Assembly: GCA_030429925.1 (NCBI GenBank)
Contig: JAUIGQ010000013.1
Span: 1-35,042 of the forward strand
DNA length: 35,042 nucleotides
Direction of reading: 5' to 3'
DNA from: Bacteroidia bacterium
GTDB lineage: Bacteria; Bacteroidota; Bacteroidia; Flavobacteriales_E; Vicingaceae
Position 1 is the first letter of the stretch, and every line of letters begins with the position of its first letter. Made by a program: the position numbers and the translations under genes. Shown here piece by piece: positions 30,931 to 35,042 of the stretch. The notes beneath the pieces were generated by a model. That model had not been told where the DNA came from and did not search any database. It was given only the letters and a program-made list of their open reading frames with translations.

Positions 30931-32325
30931 TTAGATCCTAGATAAGAGATCCCTTACCAATGAATAGTCTACATTTTCAACCGTTGGAAGATTCATTCCT
31001 TTTGCAGATATCTCTTTCGCGTTTTTGTTGGAAAAAGCATACTCAGCATAGATCGGCATATCAGAAAGGCAATAGAAGAAAGGCCTAACATCAATATTGT
31101 TGTCTCTCAGCTGTTGGCTGATCTCTTCTTTTTTATCACTAAGACAAGAAACCAACCAGACTACTTTTTTCCTGTTGTCAAACTCTTGTTGCCACTCAAT
31201 AATGCCAAGGTCATCCAAGGCCAATTTATAGTCTCGCTCTATCTGCATTTTTCTTTCGATCAACTCATCGATCTTCTCTAGTTGAGCACAGCCAATAGCG
31301 GCTTGAAGGTTGGTCATTCGGTAGTTGTAGCCGATCTCTTCATGCCAGTACTTTTTCTCTCTGCTCATGCCGTGGTCTCTAAGCTGTCTCATCTTATCGT
31401 CTAGCTCAGCAGAGTTGGTTAGGCACATTCCACCTTCACCTGTAGTAATGATCTTGTTCGCAAAGAAGGAGTAAGTTGAAATGTCTCCAAAACTTCCTAC
31501 CCTTTGTCCATTGAACTCAGCACCATGGGCTTCAGCACAATCTTCTATCACCTTTAGGTCATTCTCCTTAGCTATATGCATGATGGAGCTCATATCGCAT
31601 GCTTGACCATAAACATGGACGGGAATAATGGCCTTGGTCTTTGGATTCAGGGCCTTTTTGATCTCTTCTACTGAAATGGTCCAACTATCCTTGTCGATAT
31701 CCACAAGAACCGGAGTTGCATTGGCTAGAAGCACAGCATTTATGGTGGCGGCAAAGGTCAGGTCGGGGATGATCACTTCATCTCCTTCACCAATTCCAAG
31801 TGCCTTTAAAGCCAGATGAATAGCAACCGTTCCATTACTTACTGCCACACCATGATTGCAATTGATGTATTTGGCAAAATTCTCTTCAAACTGATCGATA
31901 TACTTTCCTCGGCTGCTGATCCAAGTGGAGGTAAAAGCATCCATAAGAAATCGATATTCGGTATTGTCGAGACTTGGCTCTGCAATAGGAGTGAAGCGGG
32001 TTTGATGACGATAAACGAAATAGTCAACCAGAAAGCCAGCATCGTCAATGATGGGTATGATCCTGATCTTCTTGCTGGTCTTTTTGAGTAGCTCTTCCAT
32101 GCTTTCACCTTTTTTGGCTACCACATAGTCGCCTAGATCAGCTTTGGAGAGATTGTCTTGCATCGACTTTCCTTTCAGTAGCATTCTTCTGAAATCGCCA
32201 TCGGTAACAATGCCGCAGAGCTTTTCTTCTTCATCAATAATAAAGGCGGTGCCAGCAGGCTCATGATCTATTGCCTTGATCAATTCTTTTAAACTGCTAT
32301 TGTATTTGCAACAAGATCCTTTCAT
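30931..32325 (-). CDS. DegT/DnrJ/EryC1/StrS sugar aminotransferase with N-terminal CBS pair
   Basis: A 464-residue fusion. Residues about 8-108 are two CBS domains (AFIIDEEEKLCGIVTDGDFRR is the first strand-helix unit, split over 27-47; IRIIPIIDDAGFLVDYFV the second). From about 113 a complete PLP-dependent nucleotide-sugar aminotransferase follows. Asp262 in EDCAEAHGA should hold the pyridine nitrogen, and Lys291 in FFANKIITTGEGG should carry PLP. The catalytic part most resembles perosamine-synthetase/LegC-type enzymes that aminate 4-keto sugars. CBS pairs normally bind adenine nucleotides and regulate. In legionaminic-acid clusters a CBS pair is known on the nucleotidyltransferase PtmE, not on the aminotransferase. 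It overlaps the TIM-barrel gene by 4 bases and is last in the operon. Confidence 0.93.
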   Translation of the reverse strand: MKGSCCKYNSSLKELIKAIDHEPAGTAFIIDEEEKLCGIVTDGDFRRMLLKGKSMQDNLSKADLGDYVVAKKGESMEELLKKTSKKIRIIPIIDDAGFLVDYFVYRHQTRFTPIAEPSLDNTEYRFLMDAFTSTWISSRGKYIDQFEENFAKYINCNHGVAVSNGTVAIHLALKALGIGEGDEVIIPDLTFAATINAVLLANATPVLVDIDKDSWTISVEEIKKALNPKTKAIIPVHVYGQACDMSSIMHIAKENDLKVIEDCAEAHGAEFNGQRVGSFGDISTYSFFANKIITTGEGGMCLTNSAELDDKMRQLRDHGMSREKKYWHEEIGYNYRMTNLQAAIGCAQLEKIDELIERKMQIERDYKLALDDLGIIEWQQEFDNRKKVVWLVSCLSDKKEEISQQLRDNNIDVRPFFYCLSDMPIYAEYAFSNKNAKEISAKGMNLPTVENVDYSLVRDLLSRI

Positions 32326-33173
32326 AGTAGATTTTCAATGAGCTCGTATGAACTCCTTATTTCTTTGAGATCTGCATAGGTTTCCAAAGTGATGGTCTTT
32401 CCTTTCAGCTCTCTGTTCTGCAAAGATTGATAAATTTCCGATTCCTTTGTCAAGGCCCAATTAAGATCGGCTTTGCCATCGTTACCGGATAGATGAATGT
32501 AATCTGTACCATCAAATAAATGATCTAACTCTTCATCATAATTCAATCCTAAACTATGACAACTAACTCTCAAATGTGCAAGATCTAGAAGGTAGCCGGT
32601 GGCTGTATTCCCTAATGCCTCAGATAGATTGGCTGAATTGGTGAAAAAGAAGGGGTCTGTTTGATCGAACTCCATAAAGTTTGCAGAGGAGAGAACATTG
32701 TTTTCAATATACAAACGCACTTTATCTCCGCTAAAAGAATTAAGTTCTTGCAGATTTTCATGAAAGAGATGGAGGGCATCTTCTCTATTGAAGAGTTCTC
32801 TCTTTTTGATCTTCTTTCCAATTTGATCAAGGGGTATATTGATCAAGAATCCCGCATGAAATGCAAATTGCTCTGCCCCCAAACTTATGGAGAGCTCAAT
32901 AGCCCTTTTACAGTGATCTAAACTCATTTGGGCAACCTTTTTATCCAAGGATGCCAAGTTCAAGACAAAAGCTTCAGTTGGAGGGGGAAAGTAGTTGTGG
33001 CATAGGTAGTTAAGGCCGAACTCTTCCTTTAGCTCTAACAGCTCTTTCTCCAGTTCTGGATAATGCTTTGTCCCTCCGGAAAGCTCTATATTGCTAAAGC
33101 CTTCTCTAGCAAGAATTTTCACTGATTCTGATATGAAAGCAGCTTTAACACAAGAGGATGAAACATAGATCAT
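32322..33173 (-). CDS. xylose-isomerase-like TIM-barrel protein (sugar phosphate isomerase/epimerase family)
   Basis: A 283-residue protein of the AP-endonuclease-2/xylose-isomerase-like superfamily. Likely metal ligands and active-site residues are in place: His106 in FHAGF, Glu157 in YIENN, Asp197 and His200 in LDLAH, His227 in IHLSG and Glu264 in LETYA. These would support a divalent-metal site for epimerisation or isomerisation of a sugar. Its place between a NeuD-type acetyltransferase and a DegT aminotransferase, with 4-base overlaps on both sides, ties it to nonulosonic-acid synthesis. I infer it handles a hexose or 6-deoxyhexose precursor. A hydrolysing UDP-sugar epimerase (NeuC/LegG) is not seen in this window. 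Confidence 0.85.
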   Translation of the reverse strand: MIYVSSSCVKAAFISESVKILAREGFSNIELSGGTKHYPELEKELLELKEEFGLNYLCHNYFPPPTEAFVLNLASLDKKVAQMSLDHCKRAIELSISLGAEQFAFHAGFLINIPLDQIGKKIKKRELFNREDALHLFHENLQELNSFSGDKVRLYIENNVLSSANFMEFDQTDPFFFTNSANLSEALGNTATGYLLDLAHLRVSCHSLGLNYDEELDHLFDGTDYIHLSGNDGKADLNWALTKESEIYQSLQNRELKGKTITLETYADLKEIRSSYELIENLL

Positions 33174-33784
33174 GCTTCTCTCATTTTTTTGGCCGGAATA
33201 CCAATATATGTTCCCGCTTCAGTAATATCTGTGGTGACAACTGCTCCGGCACCTATGGTTACATCATCGCAGATACTAACTTTTGGCAGAATAGTGGAGG
33301 AGGCTCCCAAAAAACACCTATTTCCGATCTTTACCCTTCCACAAATAGCAACATTAACGGTGATCACATTATGATCTCCGATCTGCACCTCATGCTCAAT
33401 ACTGCTCTGAGAATAAATGATATTGTGAGAGCCCATGGCTGCTGTTTTAGCCATATAGCTCAGAGCAGATATCTGATTGGAGTTGCCAAGAGCTACTGAC
33501 TCTACCACAGCTTTTGGGTGAATAAGGTTTTTCTGTAGGATCTGGGAACTATAGCGTTCACTTAATTCCTTCAATTGAGCTGTTTCGCCTTTGGATATGA
33601 TGAGTTGATCCTCATTGGAGATACGATCTAGTCCACCCAGCAGCGGATATCCATCGATCATTTCTCCCTTCATGCTTTCATTGTATGCATCGTCATAAAC
33701 TCCTTTGATCTCTATATTCAGAAGTTCTAGGATACTGATCAATGTTCTAGCATGTCCGCCCGCTCCTATAAGTGATACTTTCAT
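33170..33784 (-). CDS. NeuD/PglD-type sugar O/N-acyltransferase
   Basis: A 204-residue protein with the two-part NeuD/PglD architecture. An N-terminal Rossmann-like nucleotide-sugar-binding domain begins SLIGAGGHART (GAGGH at 7-11), and a left-handed parallel beta helix of hexapeptide repeats runs from about residue 90 to the end (for example IGDHNVITVNVAICGRVKIG, then LGASSTILPKVSI). It ends with the GIPAKKM-type acetyl-CoA-binding segment. Family members acetylate amino sugars (PglD, PseH/LegH-like roles) or sialic acids (NeuD). It lies one base after the synthase gene and overlaps the TIM-barrel gene by 4 bases. The catalytic His is probably within the SIEHEVQIGDHN region. Confidence 0.92.
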   Translation of the reverse strand: MKVSLIGAGGHARTLISILELLNIEIKGVYDDAYNESMKGEMIDGYPLLGGLDRISNEDQLIISKGETAQLKELSERYSSQILQKNLIHPKAVVESVALGNSNQISALSYMAKTAAMGSHNIIYSQSSIEHEVQIGDHNVITVNVAICGRVKIGNRCFLGASSTILPKVSICDDVTIGAGAVVTTDITEAGTYIGIPAKKMREA

Positions 33785-33785
33785 T

Positions 33786-34835
33786 CTAGCTGATTTCTAT
33801 GATCTCATTTGCCTCATAATCCCTGCTTGCTTCCTTGCCTATGAGTTCCTTATATCTAATGGGAGAAATACCTTTTCCTCCGGTTCGCTTTCCGACAATA
33901 TTCTCCAGGGAAAATTTTTCTCCTTTATTGATCCTCTTCTTGCTAACAAGACATTTTTGCAAGGACTTTCTGGTCTGTTCTTCAGAGGCTGTAGGTACCT
34001 TTTCAGTTTTACCAAGGTACTTTTCAATTATTCTTACTTCTCTTACCAAATCTTTCAACTCTTCAGGATCCAAGGATGCCCTGTGATCAGGACCTTCGGC
34101 ATTTTTGTCAATGGTGAAGTGCTTTTCGATCATGCAAGCTCCCATGGGAACAGCATAAGGAGCTGCACCAGTACCCACTGAATGATCAGAATATCCTAAA
34201 AGCACATCAAATTCCTTTTTGTAAGTTTCTAAAACCTTCAAATTAGCTTCTTCATCTTCTATAGGGTAGTTGGCTGTGCATTGCATTAAGATCACATCCT
34301 GATTGTGAGCGTGTATTTCTTCTAGGGCCCTTCTAACCTCCTCCAGGAAACTCATACCTGTGGAGAGGAAAATTGGTTTGCCGGTCTCAGCGATCTTCTT
34401 TAAAAAGGGAAGGTTGGTAGTATCTGTTGATGCCACCTTGTATGAGGTCATGCCAACCTCCTCTAATTCTTCCAAACTCATCTCATCGAAAGGGGTAATG
34501 ATCAATATGATCCCTTTTTCTTCGCAATAGTCTTTCAGCTCTTGGTAGTGCTCTTTTTGAAGTTCCAATTTTCGCAACATATCCGACTGACTCTCAGCAT
34601 CTGAGGTGGTCTTGGTTTGATATGGTGCCTTTTCTACAGATTCAATGATCAATTCACTTGTTCGGAATGCCTGAAACTTTACTGCATCTGCCTGAGCTTC
34701 TGCAGCTATATCAATAAGCTTTTTGGCAATCTCCATATTACCACCATGGTTTACACCTGCTTCTGCAATTATAAAGCAGGGAGCATTGTTAGAGATCTCT
34801 CTTCCTTCTATCGATATGGATCTGTTGAACTTCAT
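33786..34835 (-). CDS. N-acetylneuraminate synthase family protein (NeuB/LegI/PseI-type)
   Basis: A complete 349-residue nonulosonic-acid synthase. The TIM-barrel domain opens FIIAEAGVNHGG (about 21-32) and contains DAVKFQAF. The metal ligands expected from meningococcal NeuB are present as His218 in YSDHSVG and His239 in EKHFT, with the GPDHRASLDP loop after it. The C-terminal 60 residues are a SAF/antifreeze-like domain (KKRINKGEKF, then TGGKGISP) that closes the active site in the family. Such enzymes condense phosphoenolpyruvate with an N-acyl-mannosamine or di-N-acetylated 6-deoxyhexose to give sialic, legionaminic or pseudaminic acid; which one cannot be told here. Its ATG overlaps the stop of the preceding synthase-like gene by 4 bases. 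Confidence 0.93.
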   Translation of the reverse strand: MKFNRSISIEGREISNNAPCFIIAEAGVNHGGNMEIAKKLIDIAAEAQADAVKFQAFRTSELIIESVEKAPYQTKTTSDAESQSDMLRKLELQKEHYQELKDYCEEKGIILIITPFDEMSLEELEEVGMTSYKVASTDTTNLPFLKKIAETGKPIFLSTGMSFLEEVRRALEEIHAHNQDVILMQCTANYPIEDEEANLKVLETYKKEFDVLLGYSDHSVGTGAAPYAVPMGACMIEKHFTIDKNAEGPDHRASLDPEELKDLVREVRIIEKYLGKTEKVPTASEEQTRKSLQKCLVSKKRINKGEKFSLENIVGKRTGGKGISPIRYKELIGKEASRDYEANEIIEIS

Positions 34836-35042
34836 TCTTGAAGGTCCTCTAATTTCAAATTTTCATATTGAGCAACATCTCTTGTCAATGTCTTTCCTTC
34901 CATTTTAGGAAAGGAGGTAGGAGGGATGCCCACTTCATTGTTTCTGCTAAAGAATACATCTTCCCTTCTGAGTTTGTCCCCCTTCTTTAGATCTCTGTGA
35001 GCGATCACACTTTTCTTTTGGAACTTTCTATACTTCAATTCC
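34832..35042 (-). CDS. C-terminal SAF domain of a probable second NeuB-family synthase, partial
   Basis: About 70 codons are visible, with the frame open to the right window edge, so the gene begins outside. The visible part is a SAF/antifreeze-like domain: KSVIAHRDLKKGDKLRRED, then VGIPPTSFPKMEGKTLTRD, with the spacing found at the C-terminus of NeuB-family synthases. The residues preceding GIPP (SRNNEV) differ from the KRTGGK of the neighbour, so it is not a recent duplicate. The stop overlaps the ATG of the complete synthase by 4 bases. The other possibility is a SAF-tailed dehydrogenase-type protein, which needs the upstream sequence to exclude. Confidence 0.75.
   Translation of the reverse strand, partial: ELKYRKFQKKSVIAHRDLKKGDKLRREDVFFSRNNEVGIPPTSFPKMEGKTLTRDVAQYENLKLEDLQE

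Follow-up and report, generated by a model that had tools for sequence, protein, structure and literature searches.

The window analysed here, a stretch of 35042 bases from a Bacteroidia bacterium, is a complete contig (G000:C172) of a 2.6 Mb genome (93% complete), and its right end carries part of a nonulosonic acid (NulO) operon in which the gene of a xylose isomerase-like TIM-barrel protein (TIM protein) is embedded. We tentatively propose, at slightly less than an even chance, that this TIM protein is the nucleotide-release enzyme of a NulO pathway starting from guanosine diphosphate (GDP)-mannose. With a shade more hesitation, we further propose that its gene cassette represents an additional NulO class, spread over about ten phyla, which would start from GDP-mannose, employ an endonuclease IV (Endo IV)-like TIM hydrolase in place of NeuC, LegG or PseG, and yield a 7-N-acyl-5-hydroxy (7-acylamino-7,9-dideoxy-Kdn) product. 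What the sequences provide are family-level gene identities, a conserved gene order, the absence of NeuC and PseG, the presence of Gmd and ManC in some operons and a pattern of metal ligands.

Gene clusters containing NeuB are usually read as specifying sialic, legionaminic or pseudaminic acid. If the cassette starts from GDP-mannose, such calls would be incorrect in many bacteria of the sea and of sediments, and there would exist another way to sialic acid-like sugars, with a new product and with a new job, nucleotide-sugar hydrolysis, for xylose isomerase-like TIM barrels. An unseen NulO class would then become directly searchable by its predicted neutral mass of 293.11 (7-acetamido form). 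We found no open-access paper describing a GDP-mannose-based NulO cassette, including under “nonulosonic” combined with xylose isomerase, perosamine or GDP-mannose; the available part of one article mentions a single trideoxy NulO, of a different pattern (5-N, 3,5,9-trideoxy; PMC7371886).

Conservation of the cassette

The TIM protein was detected in nine of the 60 genomes searched (its own genome included), and eight other intact loci among those genomes exhibit the arrangement NeuB1 - NeuD (or formyltransferase) - TIM protein - CBS-aminotransferase, accompanied by a cytidine monophosphate (CMP)-transferase. Scanning a single genome for each species yielded a set of 38 loci, distributed over Bacteroidota, Campylobacterota, Deferribacterota, Thermodesulfobacteriota, Bdellovibrionota, Verrucomicrobiota, Omnitrophota, Planctomycetota, Pseudomonadota and Myxococcota; eight of the 38 correspond to genomes that had been examined before as relatives. 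The genomes bearing the cassette are mostly metagenome-assembled drafts, for which an absence in any one genome is weak evidence and a repeated pattern stronger evidence. The TIM gene adjoins the aminotransferase gene in 33 of the 38 loci (34 counting a truncated gene in L047), NeuB is located within 4 kb of it in 35 (36 if a 31% NeuB match in L059 is counted), an N-acyltransferase within the same distance in 32 (NeuD in 26, GNAT in four and a formyltransferase in two), and a CMP-transferase is present within 28 loci. With 38 loci from many phyla repeating this order of genes, chance can be discounted, and the co-occurrence with NeuB, which the preliminary description had put forward as a check, identifies the TIM protein as a conserved cassette member. 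The use of three unrelated families for the acyl step is expected if the amine made by the aminotransferase becomes N-acylated.

Several loci deviate from this arrangement. A formyltransferase-family gene replaces NeuD in L015:8699-9460 / L028:7238-7999 and in L055:1643-2431, and a 7-N-formyl form of the product is predicted for the closest relative of the window. A decayed second cassette copy, comprising a TIM gene with in-frame stops and broken NeuB and CMP-transferase genes, is found at L023:1146-4330 (G012:C10) in a genome that also contains an intact copy. Similar N-terminal CBS domains are fused to several enzymes belonging to sugar-nucleotide pathways, namely the aminotransferase, Gmd, a GHMP kinase and a nucleoside triphosphate (NTP) transferase (L116:9322-10647, L110:39-1406, L116:7827-8927). 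In an independent Campylobacterota sample, six of 397 genomes carry the TIM family (E<=1e-60), one of them being the Arcobacter genome already in the set. Two flagellin-like genes, judged by eye, lie just upstream of one of these cassettes (L126:1-3134, genome G492), hinting at flagellin glycosylation, and in L127-L130 a CBS-NTP-transferase-like gene is located opposite an aminotransferase-methyltransferase-TIM group.

Gmd and ManC within the operons

Gmd scoring above the TIGR01472 cut-off is found within the operon in five of the 38 loci (L045, L052, L054, L057 and L062; 545-604 bits vs 415). The order in L045/L109 is ManC-Gmd-NeuB1-NeuD-TIM-aminotransferase-methyltransferase-NeuA (L109 6524-14522), with ManC present in this operon only, L052 begins Gmd-Fcl-NeuB1, and L054 contains aminotransferase-Gmd-NeuA. 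In both L057 (TIM-Gmd-aminotransferase) and L062 (TIM-Gmd, with the aminotransferase 168 bases further), Gmd is situated between the TIM and aminotransferase genes; L044 has a Gmd-Fcl pair ~6 kb upstream. On an Omnitrophota contig (G091:C43), a CBS-Gmd fusion, an aminotransferase (51% to that of the window and of the same clade) and a TIM protein form a second set adjoining a separate LegB-LegC-NeuD-NeuB set. This fusion reaches 371.6 bits to the Gmd model TIGR01472, below its cut-off, and 366 bits to Pfam GDP_Man_Dehyd; the CBS domain has here moved from the aminotransferase to the dehydratase. Within the [ST]SE...Yx3K motif of GDP-mannose dehydratases (PMC8987622), all six canonical Gmd copies exhibit TSE and the CBS-Gmd fusion SSE.

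The presence of Gmd (and once of ManC) in the operon suggests a GDP-mannose precursor that is already manno-configured, so that no 2-epimerase is needed. A GDP-linked manno precursor nevertheless requires a release step, and the TIM protein is the only recurring cassette enzyme that is left unassigned. Cassettes without their own Gmd may be supplied by a housekeeping Gmd that also serves GDP-fucose. Genome-wide presence of Gmd was dropped as evidence, since 51 of 60 relatives carry it and it is common also where the cassette is absent, and adjacency alone was used.

Occurrence of NeuC, LegG, PseG and LegB

The preliminary description had seen no NeuC, LegG or PseG in the window, and the same holds for the 93%-complete genome, in which neither a NeuC/LegG-superfamily (PF02350) nor a PseG match was found, AGE/NanE-type 2-epimerases not having been searched for. 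With both scans empty, a NeuC-like enzyme hidden elsewhere in this genome was rejected. Looking past position 35042, as had been advised, led to a CMP-transferase on a second contig (G000:C45), joined to the window by homology. PF02350 is also absent from six of the nine genomes of the organism's own family set. Among the 38 TIM-bearing genomes, NeuC exceeds its curated cut-off in six and PseG in six, either of them in eight and neither in 30; a NeuC-model match of any strength at E<=0.001 is present in 27. Where NeuC or PseG could be placed on the contig of the cassette, they are part of another NulO cluster (L052/L111; G089). LegB scores above its cut-off in seven of 39 genomes, and none of the 38 loci contains a LegB-grade dehydratase (best <=29% identity). 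Across the 38 loci, none of the other recurring cassette genes is a candidate for a hydrolase. Without NeuC, the missing step is the release of the nucleotide and not merely an epimerization.

Aminotransferase, acyltransferase and NeuB1

The closest solved relatives of the window aminotransferase are the perosamine synthetases 3dr7, 3bn1 and 3dr4 (E ~1e-89) as well as 7b0m, the best PDB match being 3dr7 with 45.5% identity. In a phylogenetic tree, LegC proteins form a clade of their own that does not include the window aminotransferase, and 7b0m groups with the LegC proteins of L116 and L118, away from the cassette aminotransferases; by its position among these clades, the window enzyme is judged not to be a LegC. 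NeuD matches TIGR03570 with 161.2 bits (cut-off 160.8).

NeuB1 matches the N-acetylneuraminate synthase family model (TIGR03569) with 406 bits (cut-off 399.65), and its substrate may differ from that of the family. Its KVASTD motif contains Thr where neuraminic (Neu) and legionaminic (Leg) acid synthases have Gly and pseudaminic (Pse) acid synthases Phe. This position faces C2 of the substrate, Gly being tied to Neu/Leg and Phe to Pse (PMC7371886). Among 36 cassette NeuB1 proteins, the X of K-x-x-S-X-[DE] is Thr in 32 (including that of the window), Ala in two, Ser in one and Gly in one, and an extra NeuB located beside NeuC in L052 has Gly. The Thr residue would fit, without proving it, another C2 substituent on the substrate. 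We also weighed a one-residue insertion (KRTGG), situated in the Arg314 loop of NeuB1, as a signature of a 5-hydroxy product; since it is absent from the Gmd-bearing loci L057 and L062, this idea was dropped.

Fold and metal ligands of the TIM protein

The only Pfam match of the TIM protein is AP_endonuc_2 (PF01261, xylose isomerase-like TIM barrel; 50.8 bits, cut-off 31.1); it matches no NCBIfam model at E<=0.001 and neither PF02350 nor the PseG family. As no NCBIfam model matches, we liken the protein to endonuclease IV and do not file it as one. An AlphaFold2 model has a mean predicted local distance difference test score of 96.3, and PDB matches support the modelled fold. The closest of these is MJ1311 (3wqo; Z 26.7, root-mean-square deviation 2.3, 246 aligned residues), followed by other isomerase-type proteins including xylose isomerases, and Endo IV is among the Foldseek matches. 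MJ1311 is a D-tagatose 3-epimerase-like protein that was deposited as uncharacterized, and it is also the best PDB match by sequence: a profile of the TIM protein finds no PDB sequences other than MJ1311 (E 1e-8) and Endo IV, the latter weakly (E 0.0074) and over a stretch ending in HAG/HPG. With three Endo IV proteins encoded by the genomes examined here (L079, L080 and L081), hhalign aligns the TIM protein at an E value of 4.7e-07. Thirteen stretches of viral contigs fitted a search pattern; none is a relative.

The metal-ligand set that had been called complete in the preliminary description, an E-D-H-E single-metal site of the xylose isomerase / D-tagatose 3-epimerase type (E157, D197, H227 and E264), is indeed complete and invariant across the 38 sequences. 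Invariant or nearly so are, in all, H59, H106, E157, D197, H200, H227, D236, N238 and E264. The ligands of the tri-zinc centre of E. coli Endo IV we take to be H69, H109, E145, D179, H182, H216, D229, H231 and E261. In the three-protein Endo IV profile, H106, E157, D197, H200, H227 and E264 pair with the H109-, E145-, D179-, H182-, H216- and E261-type ligands; these six align in L079, and the single proteins L080 and L081 each miss some. A His at position 59 or 106 is missing in ten of 13 other AP_endonuc_2 proteins aligned, both being present only in L084, L085 and L097. In its ligands, the TIM protein appears to resemble endonuclease IV more than it does the four-ligand sugar isomerases, and a multi-metal centre would suit phosphoester hydrolysis. 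The superfamily also includes CbiR, which cleaves the phosphoribosyl bond of cobamides by hydrolysis (PMC7733943), a precedent indicating that the superfamily is capable of phosphoester hydrolysis on a small molecule.

Proposed pathway

In the following scheme, we infer every reaction and every substrate, as well as the attack on phosphorus. GDP-mannose would be converted to GDP-4-N-acyl-perosamine as the NulO precursor: the CBS-aminotransferase would produce GDP-perosamine (4-amino-4,6-dideoxy-mannose) and NeuD, or the formyltransferase or GNAT protein, would acylate the 4-amine. In the Endo IV-like metal cluster of the TIM protein, a metal-bound water would then attack the sugar-proximal phosphate, so that GDP leaves and 4-acylamino-4,6-dideoxy-mannose, already in the manno configuration, is set free. 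NeuB1 would join this sugar to phosphoenolpyruvate, and the CMP-transferase would activate the resulting 7-acylamino-3,7,9-trideoxy-5-hydroxy nonulosonate.

A 636-aa protein in which NeuB is fused to an AP_endonuc_2 TIM barrel is encoded in Arcobacter sp. EP1 (L110:1382-3292), in an operon with an HddC-like guanylyltransferase, a CBS domain plus HddA-like kinase and a GmhA-like isomerase. The product of this operon may be a longer ulosonic acid derived from GDP-heptose and, as a speculation, the fusion would fit the same rule, with GDP-manno-heptose going in and the free sugar passed to NeuB.

Alternative explanations

A number of observations speak against the proposed release step or the GDP-mannose origin. 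No member of the NeuB cluster is found near the TIM gene in L041, L059 (31% match only) and L060, and four small Campylobacterota genomes (L127-L130) combine the TIM protein with a CBS-aminotransferase and a methyltransferase without an adjoining NeuB. Gmd lies outside the operon in 33 of the 38 loci, no Gmd operon was found in five further Campylobacterota loci, and at genome level the occurrence of Gmd (36 of 39) is uninformative. In L052, Fcl (GDP-fucose synthase) directly follows Gmd, which may there serve GDP-fucose. In the aminotransferase tree, perosamine synthetase occupies an unresolved node and PerA is represented by a single row. The fold search scores D-tagatose 3-epimerase-like proteins and xylose isomerases level with or above Endo IV and does not separate a hydrolase from an isomerase. 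Concerning the ligands, the ninth, a His in Endo IV, corresponds to Asn238 in the TIM protein, H59 is not cleanly alignable to an Endo IV His, and D236 is present but likewise not cleanly aligned.

Three other explanations were considered. The preliminary description had taken the TIM protein for an isomerase or epimerase that could provide the manno configuration by a different chemistry. In this explanation, it would act on a free or nucleoside diphosphate-linked amino sugar to supply the substrate of NeuB, and an enzyme encoded elsewhere would release the nucleotide. Fold and Pfam family, shared with D-tagatose 3-epimerase and xylose isomerase, favour this view, as does the intact single-metal set together with the DxxH motif of such enzymes; we nevertheless regard it as unlikely, since the additional conserved H59, H106 and D236 conform to what is seen in Endo IV, Gmd and ManC provide in some operons a sugar that needs no C2 epimerization, and no second hydrolase recurs. 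What survives of the earlier claim is the non-standard route, a cassette devoid of NeuC, LegG and PseG with Gmd or ManC in some operons, and hydrolysis replaces epimerization as the likelier chemistry. A legionaminic-type route, in which the aminotransferase would act on GDP- or UDP (uridine diphosphate)-4-keto-6-deoxy-GlcNAc and the TIM protein would be a non-homologous LegG/NeuC replacement catalysing hydrolysis plus C2 epimerization, seems less probable still. LegC (TIGR04181) is the best NCBIfam model of the aminotransferase (352.8 bits, below the cut-off of 420), CBS domains are likewise found on NTP transferases in clusters of this type, with a CBS-NTP-transferase-like gene near the TIM gene in L127-L130, and NeuB1 retains the equivalent of R314 of the N. 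meningitidis enzyme, a residue that presumably contacts the N-acetyl group. Against it stand the rarity of LegB, the separate clade of LegC proteins and the Thr of NeuB1 at the C2 position, where Gly would be anticipated. Most improbable appears a phosphatase or phosphodiesterase whose substrate would be a different intermediate, for instance a sugar-1-phosphate or a NulO 9-phosphate: a NulO synthase whose C-terminal domain is homologous to phosphodiester-cleaving endonucleases is on record (PMC3438082), and the fused Arcobacter relative is homologous to the window TIM protein (hhalign E 6.5e-06), but a 6-deoxy sugar made by way of Gmd lacks the 6-hydroxyl, which would preclude a 9-phosphate, and among the neighbours scanned no recurring kinase gene was recognized.

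Relation to known systems

GDP-perosamine and GDP-N-acetylperosamine are synthesized by Gmd, PerA and PerB, the last being of the NeuD/PglD kind. The cassette resembles this pathway in Gmd, in its PerA-like aminotransferase and in its NeuD/PglD-family N-acyltransferase, and differs in that the sugar would be delivered to NeuB instead of a glycosyltransferase and in the addition of a CBS domain and the TIM barrel. The GDP-linked CMP-legionaminic acid pathway of Campylobacter comprises PtmE, LegB, LegC, LegH, LegG, LegI and LegF (PMC3438082). Common to both are a GDP-linked 6-deoxy-4-amino sugar (proposed for the cassette), a DegT aminotransferase, an N-acyltransferase, NeuB, a CMP-transferase and CBS domains. 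Unlike that pathway, however, the cassette lacks LegB and LegG, includes Gmd in some operons, has the Endo IV-like TIM protein in the place of LegG, carries its CBS domain on the aminotransferase or, in L116, on Gmd, and is predicted to give a 5-hydroxy and not a 5-N product.

The coupling of NeuB to an endonuclease-like domain within a NulO cluster was already noticed in 2012 in Leptospira interrogans, where the fusion was proposed to be an N-acetylneuraminic acid 9-phosphatase (Ricaldi et al. 2012, PMC3438082). In the cassette, by contrast, the TIM protein is a separate protein of its own subfamily, and GDP-mannose is not considered for Leptospira in the available part of that article. Akkermansia CbiR likewise is an AP_endonuc_2 TIM barrel and hydrolyses a phosphoester of a small nucleotide-bearing molecule, but its substrate is a cobamide and its genes are located in cobamide loci (PMC7733943).

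Organization of the window locus

At the right end of the window, the minus-strand transcription order is NeuB2 end, NeuB1, NeuD, TIM gene and CBS-aminotransferase (Table 1). The TIM gene shares four bases with each of its neighbours, the upstream NeuD open reading frame at 33170-33173 and the downstream aminotransferase frame at 32322-32325, as had been described.

Table 1. Position of the NulO genes in the window and on contig G000:C45.
Location	Strand	Product	Length	Remark
30931..32325	-	CBS-domain + DegT/DnrJ/EryC1/StrS aminotransferase	464 aa	below LegC cut-off
32322..33173	-	AP_endonuc_2 TIM-barrel protein	283 aa	ATG start; proposed metal-dependent GDP-sugar hydrolase
33170..33784	-	NeuD/PglD-type N-acyltransferase	204 aa	proposed acylation of 4-amine
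33786..34835	-	NeuB1, nonulosonate synthase	349 aa	
34832..35041	-	NeuB2, C-terminal SAF end		cut by contig end; second, divergent NeuB
G000:C45 (L003:1-756)	-	NeuB2, N-terminal part	252 aa	

Contig G000:C45 (3078 bases) encodes most of NeuB2, a DHDPS-family protein, a PseF-like CMP-transferase and a PhyH-like protein, and by homology probably represents the operon start (PhyH-like, CMP-transferase, DHDPS-family, NeuB2). Compared with the NeuB2 of L028 (351 aa), the C45 part covers residues 5-256 and the window part residues 284-350; the two contigs end without overlap, leaving a gap of ~27 NeuB2 codons. The assignment of C45 as operon start is supported by a genome of the same genus (G001), in which the operon is unbroken on one contig. 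The divergent NeuB2 (G000:C45, L003:1-1674 on the minus strand, and window 34832-35041) is coupled to a DHDPS/NAL-family gene and the PseF-like CMP-transferase, and DapA-type genes occur in five of the 38 cassette loci (L028, L029, L031, L038 and L040), every time with NeuB2 present.

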